This document shows positions 295 through 31,355 of a stretch of 47,449 nucleotides of DNA, in pieces; position 1 is the first letter of the stretch, and every line of letters begins with the position of its first letter. Source of the stretch: Spirochaetes bacterium GWE1_32_154. Its GTDB lineage: Bacteria > Spirochaetota > GWE2-31-10. The notes under the pieces are model-generated. The model saw nothing but the letters and a program-made list of their open reading frames with translations, had not been told where the DNA came from and ran no database searches. The stretch spans positions 1 to 47,449 of the forward strand of contig MIAY01000029.1 of the NCBI GenBank assembly GCA_001829315.1. Direction: 5' to 3'. The position numbers were made by a program, and so were the translations under genes.

Positions 295-1029
295 ATGTCT
301 ATACATACATCACTACTTTCACTAAATACTAATAATAAATCAGATAATGCGTATTTTACTCTCATACAAAATCATATTTTTAACGACCTGTATTTAGAAA
401 AAGAAAAAATACTGCATCAATCAGAGTTATTGTTTTTAAACTCCTTAAAGTTTGAAAAAAGAAAAAAAACATTTTTACTAGGAAGGTTCGCAGCAAAACT
501 ATCATTATCAAATTTATTTCAGTCAAATGAATTAAAATCAATTAATATTATCTCAGGAATATTTGGAAACCCTGTAGCTCAAACGAATATTTCCAATTCT
601 GCAGACATAAGTATTAGTCATTGTAAAAACTTTACTGTAGCGGTAGCATTTCCTTCTTTTTATATTCTAGGAATAGATATTGAAGCAATAAAAAAAAATA
701 ATGTCATAAAAAAATATATTACTAATTTGGAATGGAAAAGTTTAACCTCTTTTTTTCATTCGTTAGAAGAAAAAACATTATTAACAATAATTTGGACTGC
801 AAAAGAATCTCTATCAAAGGCTTTAAAATGTGGGTTAAATATTTCTTTTAACTTACTCGAAATAAAAAATATTACTTTAATTTCTGAGAATCACTTTTCC
901 TGTGATTATGTAAATTTTCCTCAATATAAATGTGAATTTTTTGTAGCCTCAAATCATATAGTTTCAATTGTGTTACCAAACATAACATCTTTACAGTTTG
1001 ATAACACAACTTTTACTGAAAAACTATAG
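295..1029 (+). CDS. Sfp-type 4'-phosphopantetheinyl transferase
   Basis: This 244-residue protein should transfer phosphopantetheine from CoA to carrier-protein serines, turning apo- into holo-ACP in the cytoplasm. The superfamily signatures are visible: GIDIE (the GxDxE metal/CoA motif) near the middle and WTAKESLSKA (the WxxKExxxKA motif) about 40 residues later. The length fits the Sfp/EntD class rather than the roughly 120-residue AcpS class. The ATG follows a GAGGA site. It converges on the giant PKS gene, and the two TAG stops overlap inside the 6-bp palindrome CTATAG (1024-1029), leaving no room for a terminator. The PKS has three carrier domains to activate, so a dedicated role is the obvious inference. 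Like the PKS it is strikingly A/T rich. Confidence 0.9.
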   Translation: MSIHTSLLSLNTNNKSDNAYFTLIQNHIFNDLYLEKEKILHQSELLFLNSLKFEKRKKTFLLGRFAAKLSLSNLFQSNELKSINIISGIFGNPVAQTNISNSADISISHCKNFTVAVAFPSFYILGIDIEAIKKNNVIKKYITNLEWKSLTSFFHSLEEKTLLTIIWTAKESLSKALKCGLNISFNLLEIKNITLISENHFSCDYVNFPQYKCEFFVASNHIVSIVLPNITSLQFDNTTFTEKL

Positions 1030-4000
1030 CTTATTATTATTTTTCGAAATAAAGTTAAAAAATTTATCAGAGAAATGATCAAAATGAGTTATATATGGAA
1101 AATGCCCTGCTGCTTCAATTTCACAATAACTAAAATCTTTTATTCTTTTAGAAAAGCACTCATTATCTGACTCATCGATAATTACTTTTTTTAAAGAATC
1201 TTTTCCACCAGTTATAAAAAACACAGGTTTACTAATATCATGAAGTTTTTCCCGTGTAGAAAAAGTTTTCATATTATCGACATAACTAAATATTGACTTT
1301 GTTTTAATATTTTGGCTATTTTCTAAAATCATTTCTTCATCAACAAATAGTTGACTATTTTCAACATCTTCTCTAATTGAGTTCATTTCATTTTTTATTA
1401 AATCCTTGAAAAAATAAAATGCTTTATCTCTATCAAGCTTTATAAAATTATCACTTATCATACTAAAACTATTTGATAACGAAAGTGTTAAAAACTGATC
1501 TGGAAATTCTTGAATGAGGCTTTGAGCAACCATTCCTCCTAATGAGGCTCCAACTAAATGTGCTTTTGTTGTTCCAATAATTTTCTTTATAGCTTCATAA
1601 AAGTGCTCTGTTAAAATTTCCAATCTTAATTCTGAAATTATTTCACTATTACCATGGCCTGGTTTGTGAAAAAAGATCATCATATAATCTGAAAAAATTT
1701 TGCTTTCAATTATCTTACTCCAGACAGTCATCCCCATCCCAAAAGGAGGAATAAAAATTATTGGAACACCTTCACCAACAATTATAGCTTCCAATTCGGC
1801 ATTAAATGATGTTTTTATACTCATTTTCTTAATTTTCATAGTTTTACTTATATTTTTATTAATATAATCATCAATAAAAGATGTTTTTTCATATTTATCA
1901 ATATCAAGAAAAGTTTGTAATTTTGATCTATCTGCAAAAAGTGGAGCCACTATAGGTTCTCGATATTTCAAGGTATTATTTAACATATCCAGCCCTAGAC
2001 TTGTAGGCAAAGGCATCATCCCTAAAGTCTTACATAACACTTCTCTAGTGCTTTTATCAACAATCATCCCACCATCTTCCCATAAAGGCCAATTAATACT
2101 TAATGTAACGCCATGTCTTTTTTTGCTATCATGCATACTATTTCTAAATTGTGAGAAATTATTAAGAAATGAATTTGCAAATGCATAATCTGATTGACCG
2201 AAATTACCTAAAATTGATGAAAAAGATGAAAACAATATAAAGTAATCAACAGCATTATACCTTGTAAAATAATCAATATTTAAAATACCATTAATTTTTG
2301 GAGCACAAACCTCTAAAAAGTCTTTATACTCTTTTTCCCTAATTAAAGAATCTTTTATTATACCAGCAGCATGAATAATTACATTAATATTACCAAAACT
2401 TTTATTAATATTCTTGATTACAGCTTTTACTTTTGAGCCATCTTCAATATCTACCTGGAAATATTTAACTTTATTGCCATTTAACCTTAACTTTTTAAGT
2501 TTATCTTCTTTATCCTTTGTTAACATTGACTTCCCAACAAGAAGTAGAGTAATTCCAGGGATTTCTAACATATCTTTTGCAACTAAATAACCTAACCCAC
2601 CTAATCCTCCTGTAATAAGAATTACACTATTTTCTTTAATCACTGATAAGTCTTTTTCATTTTTTTGCTTTAGTTCTGTATAACATTTTATAAATCTTTC
2701 GTTATTTATATATTGGATCTCTGTTTCTTTTGGCAAAAAGTTACATGCTTCAAACTTTACTATAGATCTAACATCATTTTTCATCGACTTGTGAAAAAAG
2801 ATACTTTTATGATTAAATTGATTATGCTCATATCCAATAGATTTTAAGAAAGATGGAATACTAGATTCAATAATATTGCTATGGAGCATTTTTTTCTCAT
2901 CAAACATACTGATAAACATCAAAGAAATTTTTTTATCTGAATAAATATTTATCAAGGACTTTAAAAAATAAAATACAGGTTTAACTTTTCTCAAAAATAT
3001 ATTACTTGAAATATTTACTCCATTAAATAACTGTTTTACATCACTATTAATAATAATTAATATTTCATCTGTGGTACATTTTAATTGTTTTAACATTTTT
3101 TTATAGTTATCTTCTTTATAAATATTAAAACAATATTCATTATTTTTTCTTTTAAAACCAGTAAAAGAGTGTGAAATCATTATTTCATTAAAGTTACTAA
3201 TTTCTGCTAAGTTATTTTTTGATTTTTCTATGTTCAATATAATTGTATCCACATTTAAATCATCTTGGTTTAATTCATCTATTTTGTTACTTTTTTTCCA
3301 GAAAGGAGCTAAATACATTGACTCGGAAACATCTTTATTTTCTAATGTATTAGAAAGTTTCTGCTGATCTTTTGACTCTTGACTTAAGTATTTTGCAATT
3401 GAAGAAATTGTATTATATTGAAAAAATAAAGTTGGATAAATCTTAATATTTATTTTTCTCTCTAAAAGCTCTGCTAATTTCAGCAAAGATATAGAGTCTA
3501 ATCCCAAGTCAAAAAAAGTATCATCATTATTTATTTCATGTATAATATTTTCTTTATCTATAACAAGCGCCTTAATTTTTCTAATAAAAAATTCTTCTTT
3601 TGATTTGCTATCCAAATTATTAATTTCAGCTTCCCATGTATCTGACAAAATATTTTCATCACCTGCTTTAAAAGAGTTTCCATTATAAACTTTATCTTCA
3701 TTTGAAATTAAATTTGTAATCAATTCTTTTTCTCTAATTTGCTTCGCATTGAACCTTTCTAAAAAAGCAATTATATTTCCATCAGTGTCTAAAATTATTA
3801 TATCTGAAAAAATTAATGAATCAGTACTTATCCCATTGTTTTGCTTTTCAACATAGACATAACATCTTTTTTTACTATAAGAACTAATAGTTAAATTATC
3901 AATATAAATTGGAATATAAGGCTTTATGCTATTCTCTTTAGCATTATAAATCTGAAAAAGACAAGATATTATAGTTGAACTATCAAGAAAAACTGGATGA

Positions 4001-7000
4001 AAATAAAAATCATTTGTAAATTGGCCAGCAAGGTCTCCCAACTCTAATTCAGCCAAAAAGTAATTTTCATTCTGATATACCTTTCCACGAGGCTTCATAA
4101 AATTATAGTGAGAAATATTAGCTGAGTTAGTAATTTTATATACATCTTCTAAATCAAATTCTTTTCCTGCCCCATCTTTTAACTTTTGAATATCATATTT
4201 TTGTACTATCTTGTGCTGACGATTTTTTATATAACAATTAAAATTCTCATTCCATTCTTCTGAATCTGTTACTTTAGTTTTTCCTATTACACTCCAACCA
4301 AAATCTGCACGATTTAGAGTGATTCTTAATTCAATAGTATTATCATTTATTGATACAGGTTTTTTGAAAATAATATCAGATAATATAATATCATTTGTAT
4401 CATAGTTTATTAATTTTAACGATTGATAAATTAAATCAATGAAAGTAACTCCTGGCATAATTTTTATTCCATGAACTCTATGATCCCTTAATATAGGATT
4501 TTCTATATTTATTAGAGTTTTAAAAACATATTCATCATTTCGTGTGGATAAATCTTCTAATAGATCAATACTAAAAATTGCCTTTTTTGTTACTTCATGA
4601 ACAGGCCACCATCTTTTTCGATTAAATATTGGAAAATTAACTTTGTCTTTTTTATGATTTTGTTCATTTCCTTTAAACTCACTAATTATTATATGGGCAT
4701 TAGTTCCTCCAAATCCAAATGAGCTTATACCTGCTCTACGAATATCAGAGGAAACTGTCCAATCTTTTAATTTGTCTATTATATAAAAAGGAGAGTCTTC
4801 AAATTTAAATCTTGGATTTGGTGTTTCACAATTAAGAGTAGGAGGCAACTGTTTATTCTGAATTGAAAGAATAACTTTAATTACACCAGCAATTCCAGAT
4901 GCACTTAATAAATGACCTATATTAGTTTTTACACTTCCAATTCCACAAACTTGTTTAGCTCCCCCTGTATATTCATCAAACACCTTTCTTAAAGCATTTA
5001 ATTCAATAGGGTCTCCTATCATTGTTCCAGTTCCATGGGTTTCAATATAACTTATAGAAGCAGGATCTATTTTAGCTTTATGTATTGTATTATTTATTAC
5101 TTCATATTGAGCATCAATATTTGGAGTAGTTATACCCATTGTATTACCATCATTGTTAACACCTATAGAATCAATTACAGCATATATATAATCTCCATCT
5201 TTAACAGCATCTTCTAAACTTTTTAAAATTATTACGCCACTACCTTCGCCAGGAACAAAACCGTTAGCTTTTTTATCAAAAGTATGACATTTTCCATCAG
5301 GAGATAGTGCATGAGATTGACTTAAAATCAAGTAAGGTTTTTCATCAAGTAAAATTTCTACACCTCCAGCTATAGCTATCGATGATTCATTTGCTAAAAT
5401 ACTTTGACATGCAGAATTAATACTGACAATTGAAGAAGAACATGCAGTATCAATCACCATAGATGGTCCTTTCAAATTAAAAAAGTGAGAAACATGTGCT
5501 GCAATAAAATTTTGTCCAATACCTGTAATTGTATGTTTATTGGCATCACTAATATAATTGGAAAAATTTGATGAACGAGCACCAACAAATACACCAACAT
5601 TCGTATTCCAAATATTTTCTTTTGAGTAACCCGCATCATAAATTGCATTAGTTGTTGTTTCTAAAAATTGTCTAACAAGAGGATCAAGGTGAGGAGCAGA
5701 GTCCCTACTAATATTAAAATAGCTTTCATCAAAGTATTCTATTCCATCAATAAAGCCACCCCATTTACTTGTACTTTTTCCAATTGCTATAGTATCTGAA
5801 AAATAATCATTAATTTTCCATCTATCACCTGGAACTTCTTTAATATTTGAAAGACCATTCTTTAAATTTTCCCAAAAAATCTCTTTATTTTTAGCTCCCG
5901 GAAAATTACAGGCAACCCCTATTATGGCAACTTTTGAGCTATGCTTATCTTCAACAATTTTATTTTGAGACAAGCGATTTGTACTAAAAAAATCTTTTTC
6001 AACTTCATTTTTTTCATGCATCAAACCATTTATATATTCACCTAATTTTTTTATTGTTGGATATTTCCAAAATGAAGTTGGATCAAAATCAATCATTAAG
6101 TCTTTTTCAATCTTTTTAATTATATCAACTAAAATAATTGAATCTATACCAAATTCGTTAAAGTTTATTTCACTATCTAAATCAGATGTAGGAATATGCA
6201 ACTCTTGCGATAAAATCTTTTTTAAGAAGAATTCATAGTCAGATTCTGTTACTAAAGTAGTTTGTTTTTCTTTACTCTTATGCAAAGCAATTTTCTGATT
6301 ATTATGTATATTCTTTTTAACCCTAAGTAATGATTGAACTTTTGATTCATATTCTGATCTAATTTTTAATGGGACGATCTCATGTTCTGTAGAACCAGAA
6401 ATTATATTAAGCAAAACATTAAGACCTTCTTCAAAAGAAATAGCCTCTAATCCCATATCAAAATATTTTGTATTTATTTTCTTTCCCATTCCTAGATTAC
6501 TCCAGCTAGGCCAAATAACAGACTTAATTAAAGAAAAATTATCTTTTTTATTATTTGAAATTGAATAATAATTCATGAAATCATTAGCTAGAGCGTAATC
6601 ACTTACTCCAACTCCCAGAGAAGGAAATAAACTTGAAATAGATGAAAACAATACAAAAAAATCTAGCTTCTCTTTTTGCAAAACATCATTAAGAACTTCT
6701 AAGCCAGAAATTTTAGGCTCTAAGACATCACCAACCTCTTTTAATGTTTTACTAATAAAAGCTGGAGTATTTTCATTTACTCTTCCTGCACAATGTATCA
6801 CTCCATTTATCTGACCAACTTCTTGCTTAATATTAGAAAAAAACTCTTCAAGTAAATTACGATTGGTTAATTTTCCTATATATATATCAACACTAATACC
6901 ACTTTTCTCTAAATCAACAATTAATTTAATTTTCTCTTTTATTGAGTTATCAAGGTCTAAATCTCTCAAATTATCCTTCCAGTATTTTTTCTCTGGTAAT

Positions 7001-10000
7001 GGAGTTACACCTGTTAATACTAGTTTTTTAATACCTTTTGTAGATAAAAAGCGTGCTATTTCAGCTCCAATCCCACTTAAGCCACCAGTAATTACAATTG
7101 TAGAATTTTTCAAAAAGTCTTCAGCTTCATTATTTATATAAATTCTTTCTAACTCTGGTAAATATCTAATATCACTTTTATATATTACTTCAGGAAAGTA
7201 CCCATCGTAGATATTATCTAAACTGTTTTGATATTCTACAGAAAGTATTTCTAATATATTATTTTCTCCAGATACATCAATAGTTTGACTATACACATGG
7301 TTATATTCAGCACCTAAAACTTTTATTATTCCAGACATTTTTGTACCAGACATCAAAAAATTATCATTTCTTGATGAAAGATGAAAAATAGCTAATTTTA
7401 AAAAATTATAACCTTTAATTAACATCTGTAATAATGTTATTCTCTCTTCAAAAGAGTCATTATTTGAATCTTTATAATCAATTGTATCAAAATAAATTAT
7501 GTTTTTTACTTCAGAAAAATCCAAATCATTAAAATAGGTATTGTTATCAAAGTCTTTTAACAAACTTAAAAACTCTTCATTATCCGTTTTTAAATTAGAA
7601 AACAGCTGCTCTGGAATAAAATAAACTTTAGCAGAAATATTTTTGAAGATATTATGAAATAATTCTAATTTTTCTTTCTTGCATAAAATTAAAAACACAT
7701 CACTTTCTAAAAATACATTTTGTCCTGTTAGTTTTGCACTTTCTTTCCATTTCTTTTTATAAATTGTTATTTCTGAATTTTTTTCCTGAAAAATAGAACT
7801 AAAATCATATCTTCCTATTCTATTTCTTTCAAAGCAATAAAATGGTAAAGATATATTAGACTTTATACCTGTCTTATATATATTATTCCAATCTATTGTA
7901 ATTCCATTAACCCACATTTGTGCAATTTCATGTAACTTATTGTTTTTAAATAATTGCATAACAAAATAATGAGCATCTTCATTTTCAAAAATCTTATTGA
8001 TTGTATTTTTTTGGGTACTAACATCATTAAAATAATAATCATTACCTTCATCAACATCATTTAAGAAAGAATCAAGTGAATGAATTAGATCTTTTACATC
8101 TTTCACAACACATGCAAAACGCACATTCATAACATCTTTTCGTCTTTGTAAATCCGACGAAATATTTGAAATTAAAGATTTTAATTCTTCATTATTCTTT
8201 ATTGGACTAATAGTAGTTTTTACAATGTTTAACAATTCTGCAACATATATTTTTAATGACTTTAAACTTTTAGCAGAAAGAACAATTATATTGTCTGAGT
8301 TATAATTAAGTTTTGTATCAATACCTTTAAACTCTTTTTCTTCCTCTAAAATCACATGTGCATTTGTACCCCCAAAACCAAATGCACTAACTCCAGCCCT
8401 TCTAAGTTTATTACTTTCCCAATTAAGTGTTTCTTTTGGGAAAAATAAATTATTTTTAGATGAAATTAAATTATTCAACTGCTTAAAATTTAAATTAGGT
8501 GTAATCTTTTTATTATGTAACATTAGAGCTGTTTTAATTATACTGGCAATTCCTGCGGCAGACTCCAAATGACCAATTTTTGTTTTCAATGCACCAACAT
8601 ATAGTTTATTTGTCCTATTTGAAGAATTATATATTTTATTTATAGCATTTAATTCTATAGGATCCCCAAGCGATGTTCCTGTTCCATGTGATTCAATAAA
8701 ATCAATAGATTCTGAAGAAATTTTTGAATTAAGCAAAGCTTGTGTAATTACATTTTCTTGAGAAATTCCATTAGGGGCTGTTAATCCATTAGTTTTGCCA
8801 TCTTGATTTACAGCACTCCCTTTAATAACAGCAATTATATTATCATTATCACGAATTGCGTCAGATCTTCTTTTTATTATTATGATCCCAACACCTTCAC
8901 CACGAACATAACCATCAGCTAACGAATCAAAAGATTTACATTTTGCATCTTCTGATAACATTTGAGCTTTCGAGAAAGCCAATGATGTATCTGGAGAAAG
9001 TATCAAATTAACACCACCAACTACTGCCATTTCACACTCGTTAGACTTCAAACTTTGACATGCGTAGTGTAAAACAACTAATGAAGAAGAACATGCTGTA
9101 TCTAATGTTAATGAAGGACCGGTTGTATCAAAATAATATGATAATCTGTTAGAAATAATTGAAGAAGAATTTCCTGTTGTAAAGTACGGTGAAGTATTTT
9201 TTAAATTCTTATCAGTATTTAGTCTTGCATAGTCATTGCTACTTGCCCCAATAAAAAAACCCATATTAGATTTTGCCAAAGACGAAGGTTTTATGCCAGC
9301 ATCTTCAAATGCATGCCAGCATACTTCGAGCAAAATTCTTTGTTGAGGATCCATATATTCTGCTTCTACTGGTGAAATATTAAAAAATTTATTATCAAAA
9401 GAATCAAAATTATCAATAAAACCACCTTTAGAAATATAACTTAATTCTTTTGGAATTAAAGATGAATACATTTTCCATCTATCATTTCTTATATCTACAA
9501 TACCATCTTCATCTGAAAGTAAAAAATCCCAGAATTTATATATATTCTCTGATTTTCCAGGAAATCTCGCACCCATACCTATTATTGCAATATCAGTTTC
9601 TAGACTATCCTTATTAGAATCAGATGTATCTTCTATGACTTCTGATTCTTTTATATTTTCATTAAAATACTTTTTCAGATAATTAGATAAGTGATTTATT
9701 GATGGGTAATTATAAAAAACAGTTGAATCAAGGTTTATACTAAATTTTTCATTGATATTATCTATTATAGAAACAGCATTAATAGAATCAATACCAAATG
9801 AATTAAAATCTAAATTTTCATCTATTTTATCAAGAGGGTAATTACATATACTAGAAATACTTTTTTTTAAAAAATTATTTATATTAACTTCAACTAACTT
9901 ATCCTGATTATTTTTTAATATTCTATTCTGATTTTCTTTTAAATCATTTTTATGATTCTCAAAGTTTTGAATATTCCATTCAGAAATTACTTCTAACTCC

Positions 10001-11700
10001 TGTAATATATACTTCTGTTTACATGCTTTTCTTTGAATTTTCCCGCTTGAAGTTTTTAAAATACTATATGGCCTGATTAAAATAATTGCATCTACTCTTA
10101 ATCCATGCTCGATAAATACCGCCTCTCTAATTGCAGTAAAAATTTCTTTAGAATTAAAAGACCTAAGTGATGTTCTTTTTAATTCTTGAATAATGACTAA
10201 ACGCTCATTATGAGTATCATCCTGAACAGTAAATGCAGCAGATGCATTTTCCTGTAGGTCTGAATGGCTTCTAGCTGCCGACAGTTCAATATCTTGAGGA
10301 TAATGGTTTCTTCCTCTTACTATTATTAAGTCTTTTAAACGACCTGTAACATACAGTTCATTATTATCAATAAAACCATAATCACCTGTTCTTAAGTAAG
10401 TTCCTTTTCTTTCTAAAGGGGATCCATTAAAAGTTTTTTCACTTTCTTCTATTTTATTCCAATATCCGTTTGCTACAGAATCACTTTGGATCCAAATTTC
10501 ACCAACAATATCATCTGCTTGTATCTCATTCGTTTCAGGATCAACTATTATCAAATCCACACCTTCAAGAATAGTCCCACATGAAATAATTTCTTTGCTA
10601 TTTCTTAAATGCTCTTCTTCCTGTATAAACCCCTTTTCTAATAGTGATTTATTTACTTTCTTTATTGTAGATTTTCTTTTTTTAGGCCCCCCTGTTACAA
10701 ATAAAGTTGCTTCCGCTAACCCATAACATGGAAACATTGCAATTTCACTTAAACCACACTCCTTAAACTTACTATAGAATTTTTTTATAGTTTCTACTGA
10801 AATTGGCTCAGCTCCATTATATGCTAAATCAAGAGATGTTAAGTCTAAATCTCCTAAATCATCTCTTTTTATCTTTTCTGTACATAAGTCATATGCAAAA
10901 TTTGGAGCACCACTAGTTGTACCTTTATACTTTGAAATTGCTTTTAACCATCTGCTTGGTTTCTGAAGAAAAGATTCTGGACTCATGAGAACAGCTAACA
11001 CACCTAAATATAATGGTTGAAGAGTATTGCCTATTAAACCCATATCATGAAACATAGGTAGCCAACTTACAAAAACTGTTGAACTAGAATGTTCAAAACC
11101 TTTTTTAATAAGCTTTTGATTATGTATCAAATTCTTATGCGTTATAACTACACCTTTGGGATTTCCTGAAGATCCAGAGGTGTATTGTAAAAATGCAATA
11201 GTTTCTGGCAAAATAATAGGCAAAGATTTCTCATCTAATTTTAGAGATGAATTTAGATTATTTGTATTTATCCATTCAATATTATTTAATATAGAAACAC
11301 TTTCTTCATTTGTAGATAATATTTCTTCAATATCTTCAGTACTTAATATGACTTTTGGATTACAATCATTTATAATATTTTCAATTCTAGATATTTTTTG
11401 ATTTTTCCTTGGAGGAAAAGCAGGAACAGCAATAACACCAGCATATAAACATCCAAAAAATGCAGCTATAAAATTTATACTTGAATTATATAACAATAAT
11501 GCTCTTTCACCAGTTAAATTATTGGAAAGTAAATATTCACTTATGGTCTTAGCCTTTTCATCTAACTCAGAAAAAGTTACTACTTCTTTTTCTACTTCAC
11601 CATCTTTTAAAAAAATATATGCTTTTTCATCTGATTTTGTGCGTGAATAGTATTTTAATACATCCACCATTGTTGTACATTCATTTATAGATTCTTTCAC
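1024..11700 (-). CDS. FAAL-initiated, AT-less (trans-AT type) polyketide synthase, 3558 aa
   Basis: This is a single-polypeptide lipid-polyketide assembly line. Order by residue: fatty acyl-AMP ligase 1-590 (YTSGSSGNPKG near 172, the FAAL-type GRLKDLIIVRGRN...YPQDIE 453-472); ACP1 (Ser639); KS1 702-1125 (Cys870, His1005, His1044); a KS-flanking linker 1125-1285; KR1 (GGLSGIG near 1535, SDYALAN with Tyr1702); ACP2 (Ser1854); KS2 about 1921-2340 (Cys2087, His2222, His2263); DH about 2390-2620 (HxxxGxxxxP at His2407, Asp2573); ACP3 (Ser2736); KR2 (GGLGGLG near 3030, Tyr3172); C-terminal alpha/beta-hydrolase thioesterase (GASLG Ser3386, Asp3501, His3533). Both KSs look active. No AT domain is present, and DH-ACP-KR is an order typical of trans-AT systems. 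The start is GTG, preceded by AGGA; an ATG 10 codons in is the alternative. The predicted job is to load a fatty acid, extend it twice, reduce it and release it. Confidence 0.93.
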   Translation of the reverse strand: MKESINECTTMVDVLKYYSRTKSDEKAYIFLKDGEVEKEVVTFSELDEKAKTISEYLLSNNLTGERALLLYNSSINFIAAFFGCLYAGVIAVPAFPPRKNQKISRIENIINDCNPKVILSTEDIEEILSTNEESVSILNNIEWINTNNLNSSLKLDEKSLPIILPETIAFLQYTSGSSGNPKGVVITHKNLIHNQKLIKKGFEHSSSTVFVSWLPMFHDMGLIGNTLQPLYLGVLAVLMSPESFLQKPSRWLKAISKYKGTTSGAPNFAYDLCTEKIKRDDLGDLDLTSLDLAYNGAEPISVETIKKFYSKFKECGLSEIAMFPCYGLAEATLFVTGGPKKRKSTIKKVNKSLLEKGFIQEEEHLRNSKEIISCGTILEGVDLIIVDPETNEIQADDIVGEIWIQSDSVANGYWNKIEESEKTFNGSPLERKGTYLRTGDYGFIDNNELYVTGRLKDLIIVRGRNHYPQDIELSAARSHSDLQENASAAFTVQDDTHNERLVIIQELKRTSLRSFNSKEIFTAIREAVFIEHGLRVDAIILIRPYSILKTSSGKIQRKACKQKYILQELEVISEWNIQNFENHKNDLKENQNRILKNNQDKLVEVNINNFLKKSISSICNYPLDKIDENLDFNSFGIDSINAVSIIDNINEKFSINLDSTVFYNYPSINHLSNYLKKYFNENIKESEVIEDTSDSNKDSLETDIAIIGMGARFPGKSENIYKFWDFLLSDEDGIVDIRNDRWKMYSSLIPKELSYISKGGFIDNFDSFDNKFFNISPVEAEYMDPQQRILLEVCWHAFEDAGIKPSSLAKSNMGFFIGASSNDYARLNTDKNLKNTSPYFTTGNSSSIISNRLSYYFDTTGPSLTLDTACSSSLVVLHYACQSLKSNECEMAVVGGVNLILSPDTSLAFSKAQMLSEDAKCKSFDSLADGYVRGEGVGIIIIKRRSDAIRDNDNIIAVIKGSAVNQDGKTNGLTAPNGISQENVITQALLNSKISSESIDFIESHGTGTSLGDPIELNAINKIYNSSNRTNKLYVGALKTKIGHLESAAGIASIIKTALMLHNKKITPNLNFKQLNNLISSKNNLFFPKETLNWESNKLRRAGVSAFGFGGTNAHVILEEEKEFKGIDTKLNYNSDNIIVLSAKSLKSLKIYVAELLNIVKTTISPIKNNEELKSLISNISSDLQRRKDVMNVRFACVVKDVKDLIHSLDSFLNDVDEGNDYYFNDVSTQKNTINKIFENEDAHYFVMQLFKNNKLHEIAQMWVNGITIDWNNIYKTGIKSNISLPFYCFERNRIGRYDFSSIFQEKNSEITIYKKKWKESAKLTGQNVFLESDVFLILCKKEKLELFHNIFKNISAKVYFIPEQLFSNLKTDNEEFLSLLKDFDNNTYFNDLDFSEVKNIIYFDTIDYKDSNNDSFEERITLLQMLIKGYNFLKLAIFHLSSRNDNFLMSGTKMSGIIKVLGAEYNHVYSQTIDVSGENNILEILSVEYQNSLDNIYDGYFPEVIYKSDIRYLPELERIYINNEAEDFLKNSTIVITGGLSGIGAEIARFLSTKGIKKLVLTGVTPLPEKKYWKDNLRDLDLDNSIKEKIKLIVDLEKSGISVDIYIGKLTNRNLLEEFFSNIKQEVGQINGVIHCAGRVNENTPAFISKTLKEVGDVLEPKISGLEVLNDVLQKEKLDFFVLFSSISSLFPSLGVGVSDYALANDFMNYYSISNNKKDNFSLIKSVIWPSWSNLGMGKKINTKYFDMGLEAISFEEGLNVLLNIISGSTEHEIVPLKIRSEYESKVQSLLRVKKNIHNNQKIALHKSKEKQTTLVTESDYEFFLKKILSQELHIPTSDLDSEINFNEFGIDSIILVDIIKKIEKDLMIDFDPTSFWKYPTIKKLGEYINGLMHEKNEVEKDFFSTNRLSQNKIVEDKHSSKVAIIGVACNFPGAKNKEIFWENLKNGLSNIKEVPGDRWKINDYFSDTIAIGKSTSKWGGFIDGIEYFDESYFNISRDSAPHLDPLVRQFLETTTNAIYDAGYSKENIWNTNVGVFVGARSSNFSNYISDANKHTITGIGQNFIAAHVSHFFNLKGPSMVIDTACSSSIVSINSACQSILANESSIAIAGGVEILLDEKPYLILSQSHALSPDGKCHTFDKKANGFVPGEGSGVIILKSLEDAVKDGDYIYAVIDSIGVNNDGNTMGITTPNIDAQYEVINNTIHKAKIDPASISYIETHGTGTMIGDPIELNALRKVFDEYTGGAKQVCGIGSVKTNIGHLLSASGIAGVIKVILSIQNKQLPPTLNCETPNPRFKFEDSPFYIIDKLKDWTVSSDIRRAGISSFGFGGTNAHIIISEFKGNEQNHKKDKVNFPIFNRKRWWPVHEVTKKAIFSIDLLEDLSTRNDEYVFKTLINIENPILRDHRVHGIKIMPGVTFIDLIYQSLKLINYDTNDIILSDIIFKKPVSINDNTIELRITLNRADFGWSVIGKTKVTDSEEWNENFNCYIKNRQHKIVQKYDIQKLKDGAGKEFDLEDVYKITNSANISHYNFMKPRGKVYQNENYFLAELELGDLAGQFTNDFYFHPVFLDSSTIISCLFQIYNAKENSIKPYIPIYIDNLTISSYSKKRCYVYVEKQNNGISTDSLIFSDIIILDTDGNIIAFLERFNAKQIREKELITNLISNEDKVYNGNSFKAGDENILSDTWEAEINNLDSKSKEEFFIRKIKALVIDKENIIHEINNDDTFFDLGLDSISLLKLAELLERKINIKIYPTLFFQYNTISSIAKYLSQESKDQQKLSNTLENKDVSESMYLAPFWKKSNKIDELNQDDLNVDTIILNIEKSKNNLAEISNFNEIMISHSFTGFKRKNNEYCFNIYKEDNYKKMLKQLKCTTDEILIIINSDVKQLFNGVNISSNIFLRKVKPVFYFLKSLINIYSDKKISLMFISMFDEKKMLHSNIIESSIPSFLKSIGYEHNQFNHKSIFFHKSMKNDVRSIVKFEACNFLPKETEIQYINNERFIKCYTELKQKNEKDLSVIKENSVILITGGLGGLGYLVAKDMLEIPGITLLLVGKSMLTKDKEDKLKKLRLNGNKVKYFQVDIEDGSKVKAVIKNINKSFGNINVIIHAAGIIKDSLIREKEYKDFLEVCAPKINGILNIDYFTRYNAVDYFILFSSFSSILGNFGQSDYAFANSFLNNFSQFRNSMHDSKKRHGVTLSINWPLWEDGGMIVDKSTREVLCKTLGMMPLPTSLGLDMLNNTLKYREPIVAPLFADRSKLQTFLDIDKYEKTSFIDDYINKNISKTMKIKKMSIKTSFNAELEAIIVGEGVPIIFIPPFGMGMTVWSKIIESKIFSDYMMIFFHKPGHGNSEIISELRLEILTEHFYEAIKKIIGTTKAHLVGASLGGMVAQSLIQEFPDQFLTLSLSNSFSMISDNFIKLDRDKAFYFFKDLIKNEMNSIREDVENSQLFVDEEMILENSQNIKTKSIFSYVDNMKTFSTREKLHDISKPVFFITGGKDSLKKVIIDESDNECFSKRIKDFSYCEIEAAGHFPYITHFDHFSDKFFNFISKNNNKL

Positions 11701-26430: not shown

Positions 26431-27309
26431 ATGTTAAAAGAAGTAAAAAGAGTTCTGATTATTGGATCTGGTACAATGGGAGAACAAATTGCCTTACAAA
26501 TATTAAAAAATAACTATACAGTATATTTATATGACAATTCAAAAGATAATTTATTTACGTGTAAAAGTAAAATAGAACAAAATACCACACTAGAGCAATC
26601 AGAAAAACTTTTTATTACTGAAAACCTTACTGAAATTTCAGATAAAGTTGATTTGGTTATTGAAACTGTTACTGAAAATCTGAAAGTAAAAAAAGAACTT
26701 TTCAGAAAATTGAATACACTATTTCCAAAAGAAGTAATTTTTGTTACCAATACATCTGATCTGTTGCCATCCTGGATGGCTAAAGATAGTGGCAGAGAAG
26801 AGTATTTTTGTGCTTATCACTTTCACGCACCCATGTATGGAGCAGATATAGTTGACATAATGCCACATTCAAAAACAAGTATTGATACGATAAAAAGTCT
26901 GAAAATTTTTACAAAGCGAATTAAACTTATTCCTCTTGTTCTGAAAAAAGAAAATCCCGGGTATATTTATAATACCATTTTAAATTCTATAATGGATAGT
27001 TCAATAAAGTTAGTTATTAAAGGAGTGGCTGAAATTGAAGATGTTGATAGAGCGTGGATGGGAAATACAGGAATGAAAATTGGTCCGTTTGGAATGTTGG
27101 ATTTGATAGGAATAGACACTGCTATGAACGTTTCAATAATCAAAGCTAAAAAGAATATACTATCGTATATAGGTGCTGCATTTTTTAAAAAGTTTGTAAA
27201 AAATGGAAAACTTGGCATAAAAACAGGAGAAGGGTTCTATAAGTACCCAAATCCAAAATATCAGGATGAAAACTTTTTAAGAGATGCTAAAAGTTACTTG
27301 AAGAATTAA
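26431..27309 (+). CDS. 3-hydroxyacyl-CoA dehydrogenase (3-hydroxybutyryl-CoA type)
   Basis: This 292-residue two-domain dehydrogenase has an NAD-binding Rossmann fold (VLIIGSGTMGEQIA, Asp after the second strand in VYLYDNS), the catalytic-His segment CAYHFHAPM and a C-terminal dimer domain (NPGYIYNTILN, GPFGMLDLIGID). It interconverts 3-hydroxyacyl-CoA and 3-ketoacyl-CoA in the cytoplasm. Length matches stand-alone HBD/PaaH-type enzymes. It stands alone behind a TetR-like operator, so acyl-CoA-responsive control is likely. A GGAG site precedes ATG. The usual thiolase and crotonase partners are not adjacent. Confidence 0.9.
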   Translation: MLKEVKRVLIIGSGTMGEQIALQILKNNYTVYLYDNSKDNLFTCKSKIEQNTTLEQSEKLFITENLTEISDKVDLVIETVTENLKVKKELFRKLNTLFPKEVIFVTNTSDLLPSWMAKDSGREEYFCAYHFHAPMYGADIVDIMPHSKTSIDTIKSLKIFTKRIKLIPLVLKKENPGYIYNTILNSIMDSSIKLVIKGVAEIEDVDRAWMGNTGMKIGPFGMLDLIGIDTAMNVSIIKAKKNILSYIGAAFFKKFVKNGKLGIKTGEGFYKYPNPKYQDENFLRDAKSYLKN

Positions 27310-27320
27310 GATTTAACCTG

Positions 27321-27360
27321 TTATATAGAAAAGTTTCTTAACAAAAACTCTTCTATATAA
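27321..27360. terminator. A/T-rich hairpin after the dehydrogenase gene
   Basis: TTATATAGAA (27321-27330) pairs perfectly with TTCTATATAA (27351-27360), with further pairing inside. There is no strong T tail. It is either a weak terminator or part of the array border, since the attC site starts inside its right arm. Confidence 0.45.
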
Positions 27361-27530
27361 CGCCCGATTAACCCGTGAGGCGTCCATTGGCGCATAAATT
27401 GCTGATTTCAGCCAAGTTCGTTGTGTTTAAACAAAAATCTCCCGGTTTAACCAAAAATTAGAATGTCTAAAAACCATTTCAGCAATTTGTGTGACAATAG
27501 CCGAGTCGGTGTTAAATCGTTTGTTAGGCA
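27358..27530 (-). other. Long (VCR-like) attC recombination site
   Basis: Read on the minus strand the site opens with GCCTAACAAACGATTTAAC and closes with GGGTTAATCGGGCGTTAT. The outer arms pair (TAACAAACG.TTAAC with the complement of GTTAATCGGGCGTTA). Inside, AAATTGCTGAAAT pairs with a later ATCAGCAATTT, so most of the roughly 170 nt can fold as one long hairpin, like Vibrio-type attC sites. It lies directly after the GNAT stop codon, where the attC of a cassette belongs. No coding frame is present. Confidence 0.75.
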
Positions 27531-27531
27531 C

Positions 27532-28008
27532 CTATTTATATTTTTTTTCATAATAAACTATATGCATATTTTCATTAATTTCTTCGATTTTTCCAGTTTT
27601 TATATAACCTAACTTTTCATATAAATAGCAATTACCAATTTCTTCTAATATCGTATCTAATATCCAATTATTTATATTCTTGTATTTATTTTCAATTAAT
27701 TCAAATACTTTTTGTGCTATTCCTTTATTTTGATATTCATCTAAAATAAATATTGGACTGATTCTGCATTTATTTTCATTTTCCATTGTAATTATTCTTA
27801 CAGCACCAACATTCTGTTCTTCAAATTTAATTAAATAATAATTTGTAAAACTTTGATTTAATTTTTCTATTATTCTTTCAAGTTTTTCAGCACCCGGACT
27901 TATTTCATAATCTTGATATTTTCCTAATAATTTTGCAAACGCTTTTATTTGCATTTCATATATTAAAATTGCATCTTCTATTGTTGCTTTTTTTAATTCT
28001 ATTTTCAT
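27532..28008 (-). CDS. GNAT-family N-acetyltransferase (integron cassette gene)
   Basis: This 158-residue single GNAT domain has motif A near the middle, ISPIFILDEYQNKGIAQKVF, in which QNKGIA is the acetyl-CoA pyrophosphate loop, then motif B with GNCYLYEKLGY. It transfers an acetyl group from acetyl-CoA to an unidentified amine. The stop lies just before an attC site and the gene points toward it, the normal layout of a gene cassette; GNATs are among the commonest cassette genes. A short A/T-rich leader lies upstream. Confidence 0.88.
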   Translation of the reverse strand: MKIELKKATIEDAILIYEMQIKAFAKLLGKYQDYEISPGAEKLERIIEKLNQSFTNYYLIKFEEQNVGAVRIITMENENKCRISPIFILDEYQNKGIAQKVFELIENKYKNINNWILDTILEEIGNCYLYEKLGYIKTGKIEEINENMHIVYYEKKYK

Positions 28009-28175
28009 AAAATCCTTTTATTTATCATAATACAAGGTACATATTTATCCAAATAAATTTCATTTCCATAATCAATTATATAGATTTTTTGAAAAATCGA
28101 TAAGAAAAAACAAATAAAAGCTAGCCGGTTAACCAAAAGTTAAATTGTAACAAATACAATCTAAACAAGATTTAT

Positions 28176-28262
28176 AACGGTAGTATCGTCCAGTTCATTA
28201 TTTCTGTAATCTTAAAAATAACAAACATCACAATATTTTTGAACAAGCTACTGTTCATTAAT
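28176..28262 (-). other. Weak attC-like sequence between cassette genes
   Basis: On the minus strand GAACAGTAGC near the start can pair with the complement of CTACCGTTATAA at the end (the AAC.GTAG core matches), and GTTCA segments also pair. Core boxes are poor. It would explain a cassette border between the GNAT gene and the membrane-protein pair. The rest of 28009-28263 is A/T rich with nothing else recognised. Confidence 0.25.
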
Positions 28263-28263
28263 A

Positions 28264-28872
28264 TTACCTCAATACAACATCAACTTTTATGTTTATCTTT
28301 TTATTCGATGTCTTATAAAAACCATTTATTTTATATACTAAATCTTCTTTTATTAAATTGTAATCTTTTATTCTAATACCAATAAATGCACAGTTAACAA
28401 TAAATAAAATGATTTCAACAACACTTCCCATTGCAAATATTCCACCAAATAAAAAATTTGTTGTTTCCCAAGTAGAATTTCTACCATTATTCATAGTATA
28501 TTCAATAGTATAGAAACTAGAAGCAATACCGGCTAATGATAGAGCAATAACACCATTGATTGACATCGCTCTAACTGAACTAAGTATTTTGGTGTAATGG
28601 TTACCTAAATTTATTATATCTTCTGTATTTAAAGTACCCTTAAAATTTTTACTTGTGTTATCTTTTACTCTATTATATAAATTACCAACACCTTGCCAGT
28701 AAGAAAAATATCCTTCTGTTGTTTTTTTTTCATAGTCAATTGGAAAAATATCATAGGCATTTAAATCCCCAATAATAGGTTTTACTCTGAAATCAGTAAT
28801 TACATTTGATCCATAACTATAAATAGATAGAAATAAAACAACAAAACTAAAAATATATTTTTTTATCATCAC
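28264..28872 (-). CDS. Membrane protein of unknown function, paralogue of its neighbour
   Basis: This 202-residue protein has an N-terminal signal or anchor (YIFSFVVLFLSIYSYGS), an exported segment, two central hydrophobic helices (INGVIALSLAGIASSFYTI and FLFGGIFAMGSVVEIILFIVNCAFIGI) and a C-terminal domain ending KINIKVDVVLR. It resembles the next gene upstream in layout and in the tail (KLNG...MKIRFDVVLK versus KING...INIKVDVVLR). The two are 5 bp apart and probably cotranscribed. Family not recognised. They lie within the attC-bounded region. Confidence 0.75.
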   Translation of the reverse strand: MMIKKYIFSFVVLFLSIYSYGSNVITDFRVKPIIGDLNAYDIFPIDYEKKTTEGYFSYWQGVGNLYNRVKDNTSKNFKGTLNTEDIINLGNHYTKILSSVRAMSINGVIALSLAGIASSFYTIEYTMNNGRNSTWETTNFLFGGIFAMGSVVEIILFIVNCAFIGIRIKDYNLIKEDLVYKINGFYKTSNKKINIKVDVVLR

Positions 28873-28877
28873 TTCCT

Positions 28878-29492
28878 CTACTTTAAAACAACATCAAACC
28901 TAATCTTCATACCATTTAGATATGAAACATCTATTCCATTTAGCTTATTAATAATTCCACGTTTTATCATTTTATATTCTTTCCCAGATTTAGCGGCCAT
29001 TACTATTGAAGGAATAAATAAAATTAGTCCAATAACAGAAAGGGTGGCAAAAATTGCTCCTGTAGAAAGAGTGAAAGCTGTAGTTGAATATCCCTTTTCA
29101 GTATTTAGATAATTTTCGGCGAGATAAGGCAAAGGAGTTATGCTAGCAAAAATCGCAAAAATTAGTCCGCTGGAGATTACCGAAGCAATGCTCGACTTAT
29201 ACTCAGTATATCTTGTACCAATTAGCCAAATATCTTTCCTATTTATTCTATTTTTTAGCTCATCACTTAAAGTATCTTCTGTTTTGTATTCATCTTCCAT
29301 ATTAGCAGAATTTGGAGGAATGTAAGAAAAACTCCCGCTATTAGAAGTAGATAAATTATCCACTAAATGAAATTTTACCTTAGTTGTTTCATTTTTAATT
29401 TTTTCGATTTCTAAATCAACAATTTCATTAGCTGTTGATAAAATTGTAATTGCAAATACATGCAATATAAGATAATATACTTTTTTATTCAT
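28878..29492 (-). CDS. Membrane protein of unknown function, first of a paralogous pair
   Basis: This 204-residue protein has a signal peptide (YYLILHVFAITILSTANE), an exported region of about 70 residues, two hydrophobic helices around residues 105-165 and a basic C-terminal part (YKMIKRGIINKLNG...MKIRFDVVLK). Shared layout, a shared xxRYTxxxSS / xHYTKILSS segment before the helices and the matching tail mark it as a paralogue of the adjacent gene. AAGGAG precedes ATG. Function unknown. A paired envelope complex is one possibility. Confidence 0.75.
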   Translation of the reverse strand: MNKKVYYLILHVFAITILSTANEIVDLEIEKIKNETTKVKFHLVDNLSTSNSGSFSYIPPNSANMEDEYKTEDTLSDELKNRINRKDIWLIGTRYTEYKSSIASVISSGLIFAIFASITPLPYLAENYLNTEKGYSTTAFTLSTGAIFATLSVIGLILFIPSIVMAAKSGKEYKMIKRGIINKLNGIDVSYLNGMKIRFDVVLK

Positions 29493-29541
29493 TTGATATC
29501 TCCTTGTTTATACTGTTACAATATTTTTTCTTACTTTTCAA

Positions 29542-29820
29542 TTATATTTTTGTATGTCTATTAAATATAACAAATATCAAGTGCGGACAAGATTTAACAT
29601 TGTTTTTAAATTTTTTTCCACAGTTCCGGCATTCTATTAGTTCTGAAAGAAAGTTTAAAACTGTATAAGTTATCCAGCCCAGTATAGGGTTACCTCCAAG
29701 CCACATCCAATGAGTAGATCGATTTTTATTAAGTGCAGTTTTTATTCCAAGAGTAATTGGTAACAACCAGAGCAATAAAATAAAAAAAAGAGCAGTAAAA
29801 AGTAATATTTTAATATTCAT
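29542..29820 (-). CDS. Small membrane protein with incomplete zinc ribbon
   Basis: This 92-residue protein has one strong N-terminal hydrophobic segment and a second around GNPILGWITYTVLNFL. A cytoplasmic tail starts like a zinc ribbon (CRNCGKKFKNNVKSCPH), but the fourth cysteine, expected as CPxCG, is replaced by Leu, and the end is hydrophobic. The C-terminus may be altered by a frameshift. Family not recognised. It lies in the cassette region, and no attC follows it directly. Confidence 0.6.
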   Translation of the reverse strand: MNIKILLFTALFFILLLWLLPITLGIKTALNKNRSTHWMWLGGNPILGWITYTVLNFLSELIECRNCGKKFKNNVKSCPHLIFVIFNRHTKI

Positions 29821-29929
29821 TTATCATTTCCTAAAATTACTGATGTTATACCAAATTTTTTTTCACGAGCGTTGGGTGTTGAATCCACTAAGGAAAATAT
29901 AAAATAATTTCTATACGCTCGTAGGATCT

Positions 29930-29990
29930 GCCTAACATTTTGTTAACTTGTGAGCCCAAAGGGCGAATCAAGTTGAACAATTTGTTAGGC
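29930..29990 (-). other. Canonical 61-bp integron attC site
   Basis: GTTAGGC (29984-29990) and GCCTAAC (29930-29936) are perfect inverse core sites at the ends. Inside, TTGTTAACTTG (plus strand) pairs with CAAGTTGAACAA, leaving one unpaired base, the extrahelical base typical of attC. The central arm is GAGCCC/GGGCGA. The extra base is on the side that makes the site point with the minus-strand genes. The stop codon of the 165-residue upstream gene lies inside the first core (GCCTAAC), a hallmark of gene cassettes. Confidence 0.9.
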
Positions 29991-30482
29991 ATTTCTTTTT
30001 ACTTCCATTTTATCATATCTTATTGTTATTATTGGATAATAAATTCCTGTATTTACTTTACTTCCTGGTTTGGTAAATATCAATATTGTTACATATTTTT
30101 GACCATTATATTCATAAAATTCATCATAACCATATTCATATGGCTTTATAGTTGTATTTTGTCTAGAAATATGTCCTGATTTTCTTATTTTATTCCACGA
30201 AACTATTTTTCCATTTTTAAATATCAGCGATGATTGTTCAAGTTTTTTTATTTCCGATTTCCAATATTCTAGTCGAATTTCTAATTGATTCTTAGTAATT
30301 TTAATATCAATTTTAGAGTCGTGAATAAATTTTTCTATTTCTAAGTATTCTTTGAATTCTTGTGTCTCAATTGTTTTGTGATATTTAGTAATTTTGTCAA
30401 TATATTCCTCTTGTGATACATCATCTAAAATTATGTATCTAAGTAATTTAGATTTTTTTATATTTCCATTATTAAGTATCAC
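29985..30482 (-). CDS. Integron cassette protein of unknown function
   Basis: This 165-residue, soluble, highly charged protein has a coiled-coil-prone middle (EYLEIEKFIHDSKIDIK...YWKSEIKKLEQ) and a C-terminal beta-rich part (YEYNGQKYVTILIFTKPGS, YYPIITIRYDKM). There is no signal peptide and no recognised family. The start is GTG with a strong AAGGAGG just before it. Its TAA stop is embedded in the attC core, and the GTTAGGC boundary lies 37 bp before its start, so cassette borders are clear at both ends. Cassettes of this kind often carry defence, toxin-antitoxin or unknown functions; nothing here selects among them. Confidence 0.8.
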   Translation of the reverse strand: MILNNGNIKKSKLLRYIILDDVSQEEYIDKITKYHKTIETQEFKEYLEIEKFIHDSKIDIKITKNQLEIRLEYWKSEIKKLEQSSLIFKNGKIVSWNKIRKSGHISRQNTTIKPYEYGYDEFYEYNGQKYVTILIFTKPGSKVNTGIYYPIITIRYDKMEVKRNA

Positions 30483-30518
30483 ATTTCCTCCTTTTTTTAC
30501 TTTTTGCCCGAAGGGTCT

Positions 30519-30550
30519 GCCTAACAGTGTTACAGTGTAACAGGATTCAA
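30519..30550 (-). other. Upstream border of the cassette array (attI-like or partial attC)
   Basis: On the minus strand GTTACACTGTAACACTGTTAGGC places a core site GTTAGGC (30519-30525) right before the first cassette, next to a small inverted repeat GTTAC/GTAAC. A full attC cannot be drawn with the flanking DNA, so this is either an attI-like insertion point or the half-site left when upstream cassettes were lost. No integrase gene lies beside it. Confidence 0.5.
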
Positions 30551-30587: not shown

Positions 30588-31355
30588 CTATTGTTTAATA
30601 ATATTCTCAATACGTTTAGGTAAATATGGATGTGTCATAAAAATACCGGCAAATTTTACAGCGGTAGTATAGTTTTCTTTAGCTTTACGTATATAAGTTT
30701 CCATGTTAACTTTTTTATATATATCTTTTCCGGCAGCAAGAACGAGTAATCCATTAATGCTATTTACCGGTGCTAATGAATGACCTATATTATCACAGGT
30801 GTATTCACAGCTTCTTGAATAAGCAGATTCAAGAAAGGGAATTATTAATGAAGGAAATGTCCAGAATCTTTTTTCGAGATGTTTTCTTTTAACATGTCCC
30901 AATTCGTGACCAATAACAAATTTTACAATGTCCTCATTTTCATCTATAATACCAAATATATCTGAATATATTGCGATATAATTTTTACCTGAAAATTTAA
31001 CGGCAAACGCATTGAGTAATCCCCCTTGCTGAATAATAAACAATTTTGGTTTCTTTTTAATATTTAATTTATCTGCCATGATTTGATAATTTGCATAGAA
31101 CTCAGAAAACTGTTCTTCACAGATTTCGATACCATTACCCTTTAAGTATGCAATAAGAAATATTTTCTGAAAAACAATAAATAACCAGATAAAAACAGCA
31201 TAGATAATGATTAACTGAATAGCAGGCACTAAACTACCTGTACTTATCTTTGATAAACTACTAAAAGTAGCAGCTAAAGCAAGAATTACCAGTAAGGTAA
31301 AAACTACTTTTAATATAAAGTAGAAATTTTCTTTTTTATTAACTTTGAAATTCAT
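30588..31355 (-). CDS. M48-family membrane metalloprotease
   Basis: This 255-residue protein has two N-terminal transmembrane helices (residues about 13-65), then a zinc-protease domain with HELGH (His150, Glu151, His154) and a downstream SCEYTCD segment supplying the likely third ligand Glu. The layout matches small M48 (HtpX/Ste24-like) proteases of the inner membrane, which act on misfolded or membrane proteins. GGAG precedes ATG. It is the first chromosomal-type gene beyond the cassette border. Confidence 0.88.
   Translation of the reverse strand: MNFKVNKKENFYFILKVVFTLLVILALAATFSSLSKISTGSLVPAIQLIIIYAVFIWLFIVFQKIFLIAYLKGNGIEICEEQFSEFYANYQIMADKLNIKKKPKLFIIQQGGLLNAFAVKFSGKNYIAIYSDIFGIIDENEDIVKFVIGHELGHVKRKHLEKRFWTFPSLIIPFLESAYSRSCEYTCDNIGHSLAPVNSINGLLVLAAGKDIYKKVNMETYIRKAKENYTTAVKFAGIFMTHPYLPKRIENIIKQ

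Follow-up and report, generated by a model that had tools for sequence, protein, structure and literature searches.

A two-cassette integron array without a neighbouring integrase gene in a spirochaete chromosome

How do integron gene cassettes come to lie in a chromosome at a place where there is no integrase gene? The question is raised by a minus-strand segment in the genome of Spirochaetes bacterium GWE1_32_154, located on contig MIAY01000029.1 (C29 in our numbering of the contigs; the window is the whole stretch analysed, 47,449 nucleotides). A preliminary description, made from the letters of this DNA, had proposed an integron-type cassette array. A covariance model, a genome-wide family of attC copies and the rule for cassette boundaries agree on this point: the segment consists of two integron gene cassettes, which form a real array between two ordinary chromosomal genes.

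The short attC site and the cassette boundaries

Cassette 1 carries a short attC site of 61 bp on the minus strand, at exactly the position first proposed (29930-29990). Its R boxes, GCCTAAC and GTTAGGC, pair perfectly over 7 bp, and the pair at this span is unique in the 4.03-Mb genome. The extrahelical base stands on the R''/L'' side of the window's plus strand, making this the expected bottom strand. The DNA fold of the site has an energy of -16.5 kcal/mol, against -4.9 +/- 1.8 for dinucleotide shuffles (z = -6.4; none of the 200 was as stable).

Could such hairpins be chance palindromes, or repeats of some other sort, and the genes ordinary ones? Of 200 dinucleotide-preserving shuffles made from one window strand, 4 satisfied the plain attC rule, which by itself is only suggestive; likewise, the bare GTTAGGC 7-mer is not enriched, occurring four times in the window against 2.15 expected, which is nothing special alone. 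The decisive test that the short site exceeds chance came from a covariance model for which five attCs, all of other spirochaete genomes, had served as input. In the 47 kb searched on both strands, the model matched the minus strand at 29990-29930 with 36.5 bits and an E-value of 1.5e-7 (these E-values are rough, the calibration having been short), and no other match fell below E 0.5. The long site described below gave no significant match. This independent match, together with the attC family and the boundary rule, refutes the chance-palindrome reading, whose probability we put close to nil. An earlier attC alignment, which used sites from Acidobacteriota, aligned badly and was set aside. An Rfam search of the window gave no match. 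A weak covariance-model match on the plus strand (29592-29670, E 0.58), perhaps a decayed site, is not claimed.

Read along the minus strand from 30525, the array opens with the boundary G|TTAGGC, followed by the leader motif AGACCCTTCGGGC, a GGAGG sequence and a GTG start codon. This cassette start (boundary plus leader, 30506-30525) is common to other cassette starts of the genome. In a cassette that was once circular, R'' has to be the reverse complement of the seven bases with which the cassette starts, and both window cassettes comply. Cassette 1 (29936-30524, minus strand, 589 bp) starts with GTTAGGC at 30525, the reverse complement of the R'' GCCTAAC at 29990. A second G|TTAGGC, straight after the short attC, opens cassette 2 (27361-29935, minus strand, 2575 bp), the last of the array, which contains five open reading frames (ORFs); its GTTAGGC at 29936 is the reverse complement of the R'' GCCTAAC at 27529. 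The boundary reported at 30519-30525 is therefore real, by virtue of both the complementarity rule and the bases that follow it, which agree with cassette starts elsewhere in the genome. Genome-wide, 13 of 21 attC sites obey the rule against 6.4 expected, some of these matches being due to chance because AT-rich 7-mers are common.

The motif GTTAGNCRGACCCT..CGGGC recurs just past the crossover point in about half of the cassette starts, and three Acidobacteriota cassettes (locus L088) have a similar CGAC/GGAC. The idea that the cassette leader forms a stable hairpin as a general rule was rejected, since in most cases the recurring motif folds no better than usual.

The long attC family and the integron on contig C2

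The attC of cassette 2 is a long site of about 175 bp on the minus strand (27355-27529; initially placed a few bases away, at 27358-27530). It has its R'' GCCTAAC at 27523-27529 and its R' GTTATAT, contributed by the chromosome, at 27355-27361, and was aligned to 16 further copies in the genome. Both attC sites of the array thus have R''/R' boxes and an imperfect hairpin, the fold of the long site being weak when taken alone: as a single-strand fold it is only mildly unusual (z = -2.2). What identifies the long site is its family. Searches with blastn and nhmmer found 22 near-complete copies scoring above 100 bits on 11 contigs of the genome, most of them 80-90% identical to the window site, as well as fragments and two short-loop variants. 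The aligned copies conserve the arms AACCGATT.AAC and GTTAATCGGGC. Among 393 genomes of the phylum, matches outside this genome were only short and weak; one of them, in locus L163, has the look of an attC and shares the inner arms. A possible decayed remnant of a long attC lies inside cassette 2 on the minus strand (28109-28197), where a weak local alignment was better than 200 of 200 shuffles for three of seven attC sites and not for the other four.

Several other elements adjoin attC sites of the genome. A PDDEXK_2 gene (PF12784) is found next to attC sites at C39:145870, C40:6752, C36:1534 and C28:97606, with 78-91% identity at the DNA level. A repeat of about 95 bp with inverted ends (GAGRCTGTAGAAAAACC), possibly a small transposable element, lies at or near the attC end at C1:281754, C34:122686 and C36:1319. 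At C34:121709-122686 (locus L059) a cassette protein with a weak resemblance to a metallo-beta-lactamase fold (Pfam E 0.18, below the cut-off) is followed by a second short attC.

The initial statement that no integrase is visible holds for the window, and no tyrosine recombinase or IntI match was found on contig C29; it does not hold for the genome. A single full-length IntI is encoded at C2:45444-46364 (TIGR02249, 398.7 bits against a cut-off of 265), in an open frame free of stops. Upstream of intI and divergent from it is an attI-like G|TTAGAC (C2:46816), which matches the R'' GTCTAAC of the first attC. The first cassette encodes a KAP NTPase (PADLOC PDC-S49) and ends in an attC of the window's long family; the second encodes an SH3 protein and an ion channel, followed by another attC; the third, a large one, contains a type I methylase and a specificity subunit, with a short-loop attC near the contig end. 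With an IntI above the cut-off, a putative attI beside intI and attC-bearing cassettes, the span from 45444 to 54309 on C2 (genome G000, locus L020) is a complete integron. This IntI should therefore be capable of working on the window array in trans. When other intI loci were scanned with strict structure criteria, arrays turned up at just one of them.

Two further arrays, at C10:1572 (L061) and C17:41609 (L058), have attI-like 5' flanks without a neighbouring intI. The C10 flank resembles the attI region of C2 (score 63, the best shuffle giving 56), and the C17 flank resembles that of C10 (119 against 66). Insertion at sites resembling attI was considered as an account of the dispersed arrays; it holds for C10, and for C17 via C10, and not for the window.

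Contigs C2, C39, C34, C10 and C36 terminate in or near attC arrays, indicating that the assembly breaks at these repeats. Might the window array then be a piece of the C2 integron, split off by misassembly at near-identical attC repeats? The window attCs are internal to contig C29, with tens of kilobases of ordinary genes on each side, and the boundary rule is valid for both cassettes within the contig, so that we regard such an artefact as very improbable. Among the genes of the window is a very long minus-strand ORF of 3558 amino acids (1024-11700).

Origin of the array

By the definition used in IntegronFinder (two or more attC sites together with their cassettes, and intI absent from the vicinity; PMC9024848), the array is best read as a cluster of attC sites lacking an integrase (CALIN), an assignment made here from the definition. 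Its cassettes were probably inserted in trans by the C2 IntI at an attG-like chromosomal site, distinct from attI. CALINs have been described as mobilisable in trans by IntI (PMC12444791, PMC9668308), and attG-mediated insertion was demonstrated experimentally in E. coli by Loot et al. 2024 (doi 10.1038/s41564-023-01548-y), as described in PMC12444791.

The flanks of the array are informative in this respect. On one side is a plus-strand gene for a 3-hydroxyacyl-CoA dehydrogenase (3HCDH; 26431-27309, PF02737, E 2.4e-34) and on the other a minus-strand gene for an M48 peptidase (30588-31355, PF01435, E 2.3e-19), each within about 65 bp of the array. When the flanks are rejoined at G|TT, they form a single uninterrupted 18-bp hairpin between these convergent genes. 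The chromosomal hairpin at 27318-27361, the edge of which holds the R' GTTATAT, is the probable insertion target. No attI-like sequence was found beside the window array, in contrast to the arrays on C10 and C17; this and the rejoined hairpin lead us to read the event as an attG-type insertion.

The cassettes, their attC sites and boundaries, the distant IntI with its attI-like site and the dispersal of the attC family can be read from the sequence; from these we infer the following course of events. Each cassette would formerly have been a circle closed at its own attC. The C2 IntI, which may still be active, is likely to have bound the attC as a folded bottom strand, which corresponds to the window's plus strand. 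Recombination would then have taken place with a short sequence of attG type, neither attI nor attC, that lay between the 3HCDH gene and the convergent M48 gene, the presumed target being ...TTACACTGTAACACT-G|TTATATAGAAGAG... The ends expected from such an event would be the G|TTAGGC at 30525 and a long attC with R' GTTATAT at 27361. Lying downstream of the M48 gene and in the same direction, the cassettes are probably transcribed by read-through or from weak internal promoters.

The main rival is that the array is what remains of a second complete integron whose intI and attI were lost in place. The arrays on C10 and C17, which retain attI-like flanks without a neighbouring intI, and the possible decayed attC within cassette 2 are consistent with such decay. 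At the window array itself, however, there is neither an attI-like sequence nor an intI fragment, chromosomal genes begin within about 65 bp at both ends, and the rejoined flanks make one clean hairpin. Decay in place thus appears unlikely, and insertion in trans is preferred.

Some points weigh against insertion in trans as described. No genome showed the site empty, the flanking genes having no close homologue in the 20 related genomes searched and hence no synteny to compare. Cassette 2 is unusually large and may conceal a decayed attC, for which reason the array may not be freshly inserted. Finally, there is a strong difference between the two types of attC, so that another integron may be the source of cassette 1.

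It is conceivable, as a more tentative extension, that one integrase serves many chromosomal platforms (the C2 integron, the C10 and C17 arrays with attI-like sites, from which intI was lost or was never there, and scattered attG-like sites including that of the window), shuffling cassettes across the genome.

Cassette genes, host and related systems

The gene of cassette 1 (29985-30482, minus strand) encodes a 165-amino-acid protein with no assigned function. Its 3' end reads GCC-TAA-C, placing the stop codon within the R'' of the short attC, as had been noticed at the outset. Homologues occur in six other genomes, of spirochaetes. The one in locus L189 (44% identity) has attC-like sites on both sides, at 1405-1468 and 2225-2291, the former folding with z = -7.8. 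In shuffles, the scan used there also gives a chance site or two per locus, which makes the weaker sites of this locus tentative; the first site is strong. Judging from these sequences, it is very probable that more than one spirochaete carries the gene as a cassette.

Cassette 2 encodes, all on the minus strand, a 92-residue protein with an N-terminal hydrophobic stretch and a CxxC motif (29542-29820), for which zinc-ribbon matches were sub-threshold only; a 204-residue protein with no assigned function (28878-29492), negative in a search for plasmid homologues; its 202-residue paralogue, also without assigned function (28264-28872; 28% identity over 186 residues); a 158-residue predicted GNAT N-acetyltransferase (27532-28008; Pfam PF13673/PF00583/PF13508, E about 4e-8), whose stop codon is just upstream of the long-attC R'' and not within it; and a small ORF of 43 amino acids. 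The genes are mostly of unassigned family, in line with the preliminary description: in PADLOC, NCBIfam, PHROGs and Pfam, nothing significant was found for four of five cassette proteins, the GNAT protein being the sole exception. A candidate role in defence was not borne out, as no PADLOC defence model matches the window cassettes; the cassettes beside intI do match such models.

The RpoB of the host is 65% identical to those of two named Spirochaetales/Spirochaetes metagenome-assembled genomes, 51% to that of a Nitrospirae and 47% to a deltaproteobacterial one, and the host is therefore a spirochaete. Treponema had been invoked as a known exception to the rarity of integrons outside proteobacteria. 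The phylum is indeed the same; the host's family code is f1, and that of the Treponema-like integron carriers is f19 (which we take to be Treponemataceae, with L146 and L147 as Treponema). In a quick tree the host's IntI fell in a set of 12 rows (SH-aLRT 99) without L146 and L147, clustering with environmental IntIs of Spirochaetota, Nitrospirota and Myxococcota, apart from the f19 enzymes and outside the Treponema-like clade. A 2013 survey found integrons among spirochaetes in Treponema only (PMC3607928); later work reported them more broadly in Spirochaetota (PMC8352920, PMC9668308). A literature search of limited reach found no earlier integron report for the host's family.

Treponema chromosomal integrons combine short (63-68 bp) and long (>100 bp) attC sites (PMC3607928), and the present case resembles them in phylum, in having both types and in the homologue of the 165-residue protein between attC sites of a Treponema-like genome; it differs in host family and IntI clade. 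Typical Spirochaetota IntIs are in reverse orientation (PMC9668308), whereas here intI is divergent from its array. Compared with a CALIN as defined in IntegronFinder, this case differs in that a complete integron bearing the long attC family of the window is present in the same genome. Xanthomonas CALINs outside the ilvD locus (PMC12444791) are similarly separate, with intI kept elsewhere in the genome; they belong to another phylum and attC family, and the present genome has, in addition, solitary attC sites and attI-like sites that lack an intI. The presumed likeness to the attG insertions of Loot et al., as these are described in PMC12444791, is that the cassettes would have entered the chromosome at places other than attI or attC sites; there the evidence is experimental, in E. 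coli, and here it is drawn from one genome.

The window thus holds a cassette array of a familiar type, the host being unusual and the dispersal unusually wide. An integron with its integrase elsewhere can be overlooked when a single window is read. That cassettes can spread beyond integrons is known from laboratory work; this genome, with one intact IntI and about 20 related attC copies on eleven contigs, presents a natural case, and supplies concrete attC, attI-like and attG-like sites as candidates for cassette movement in trans.
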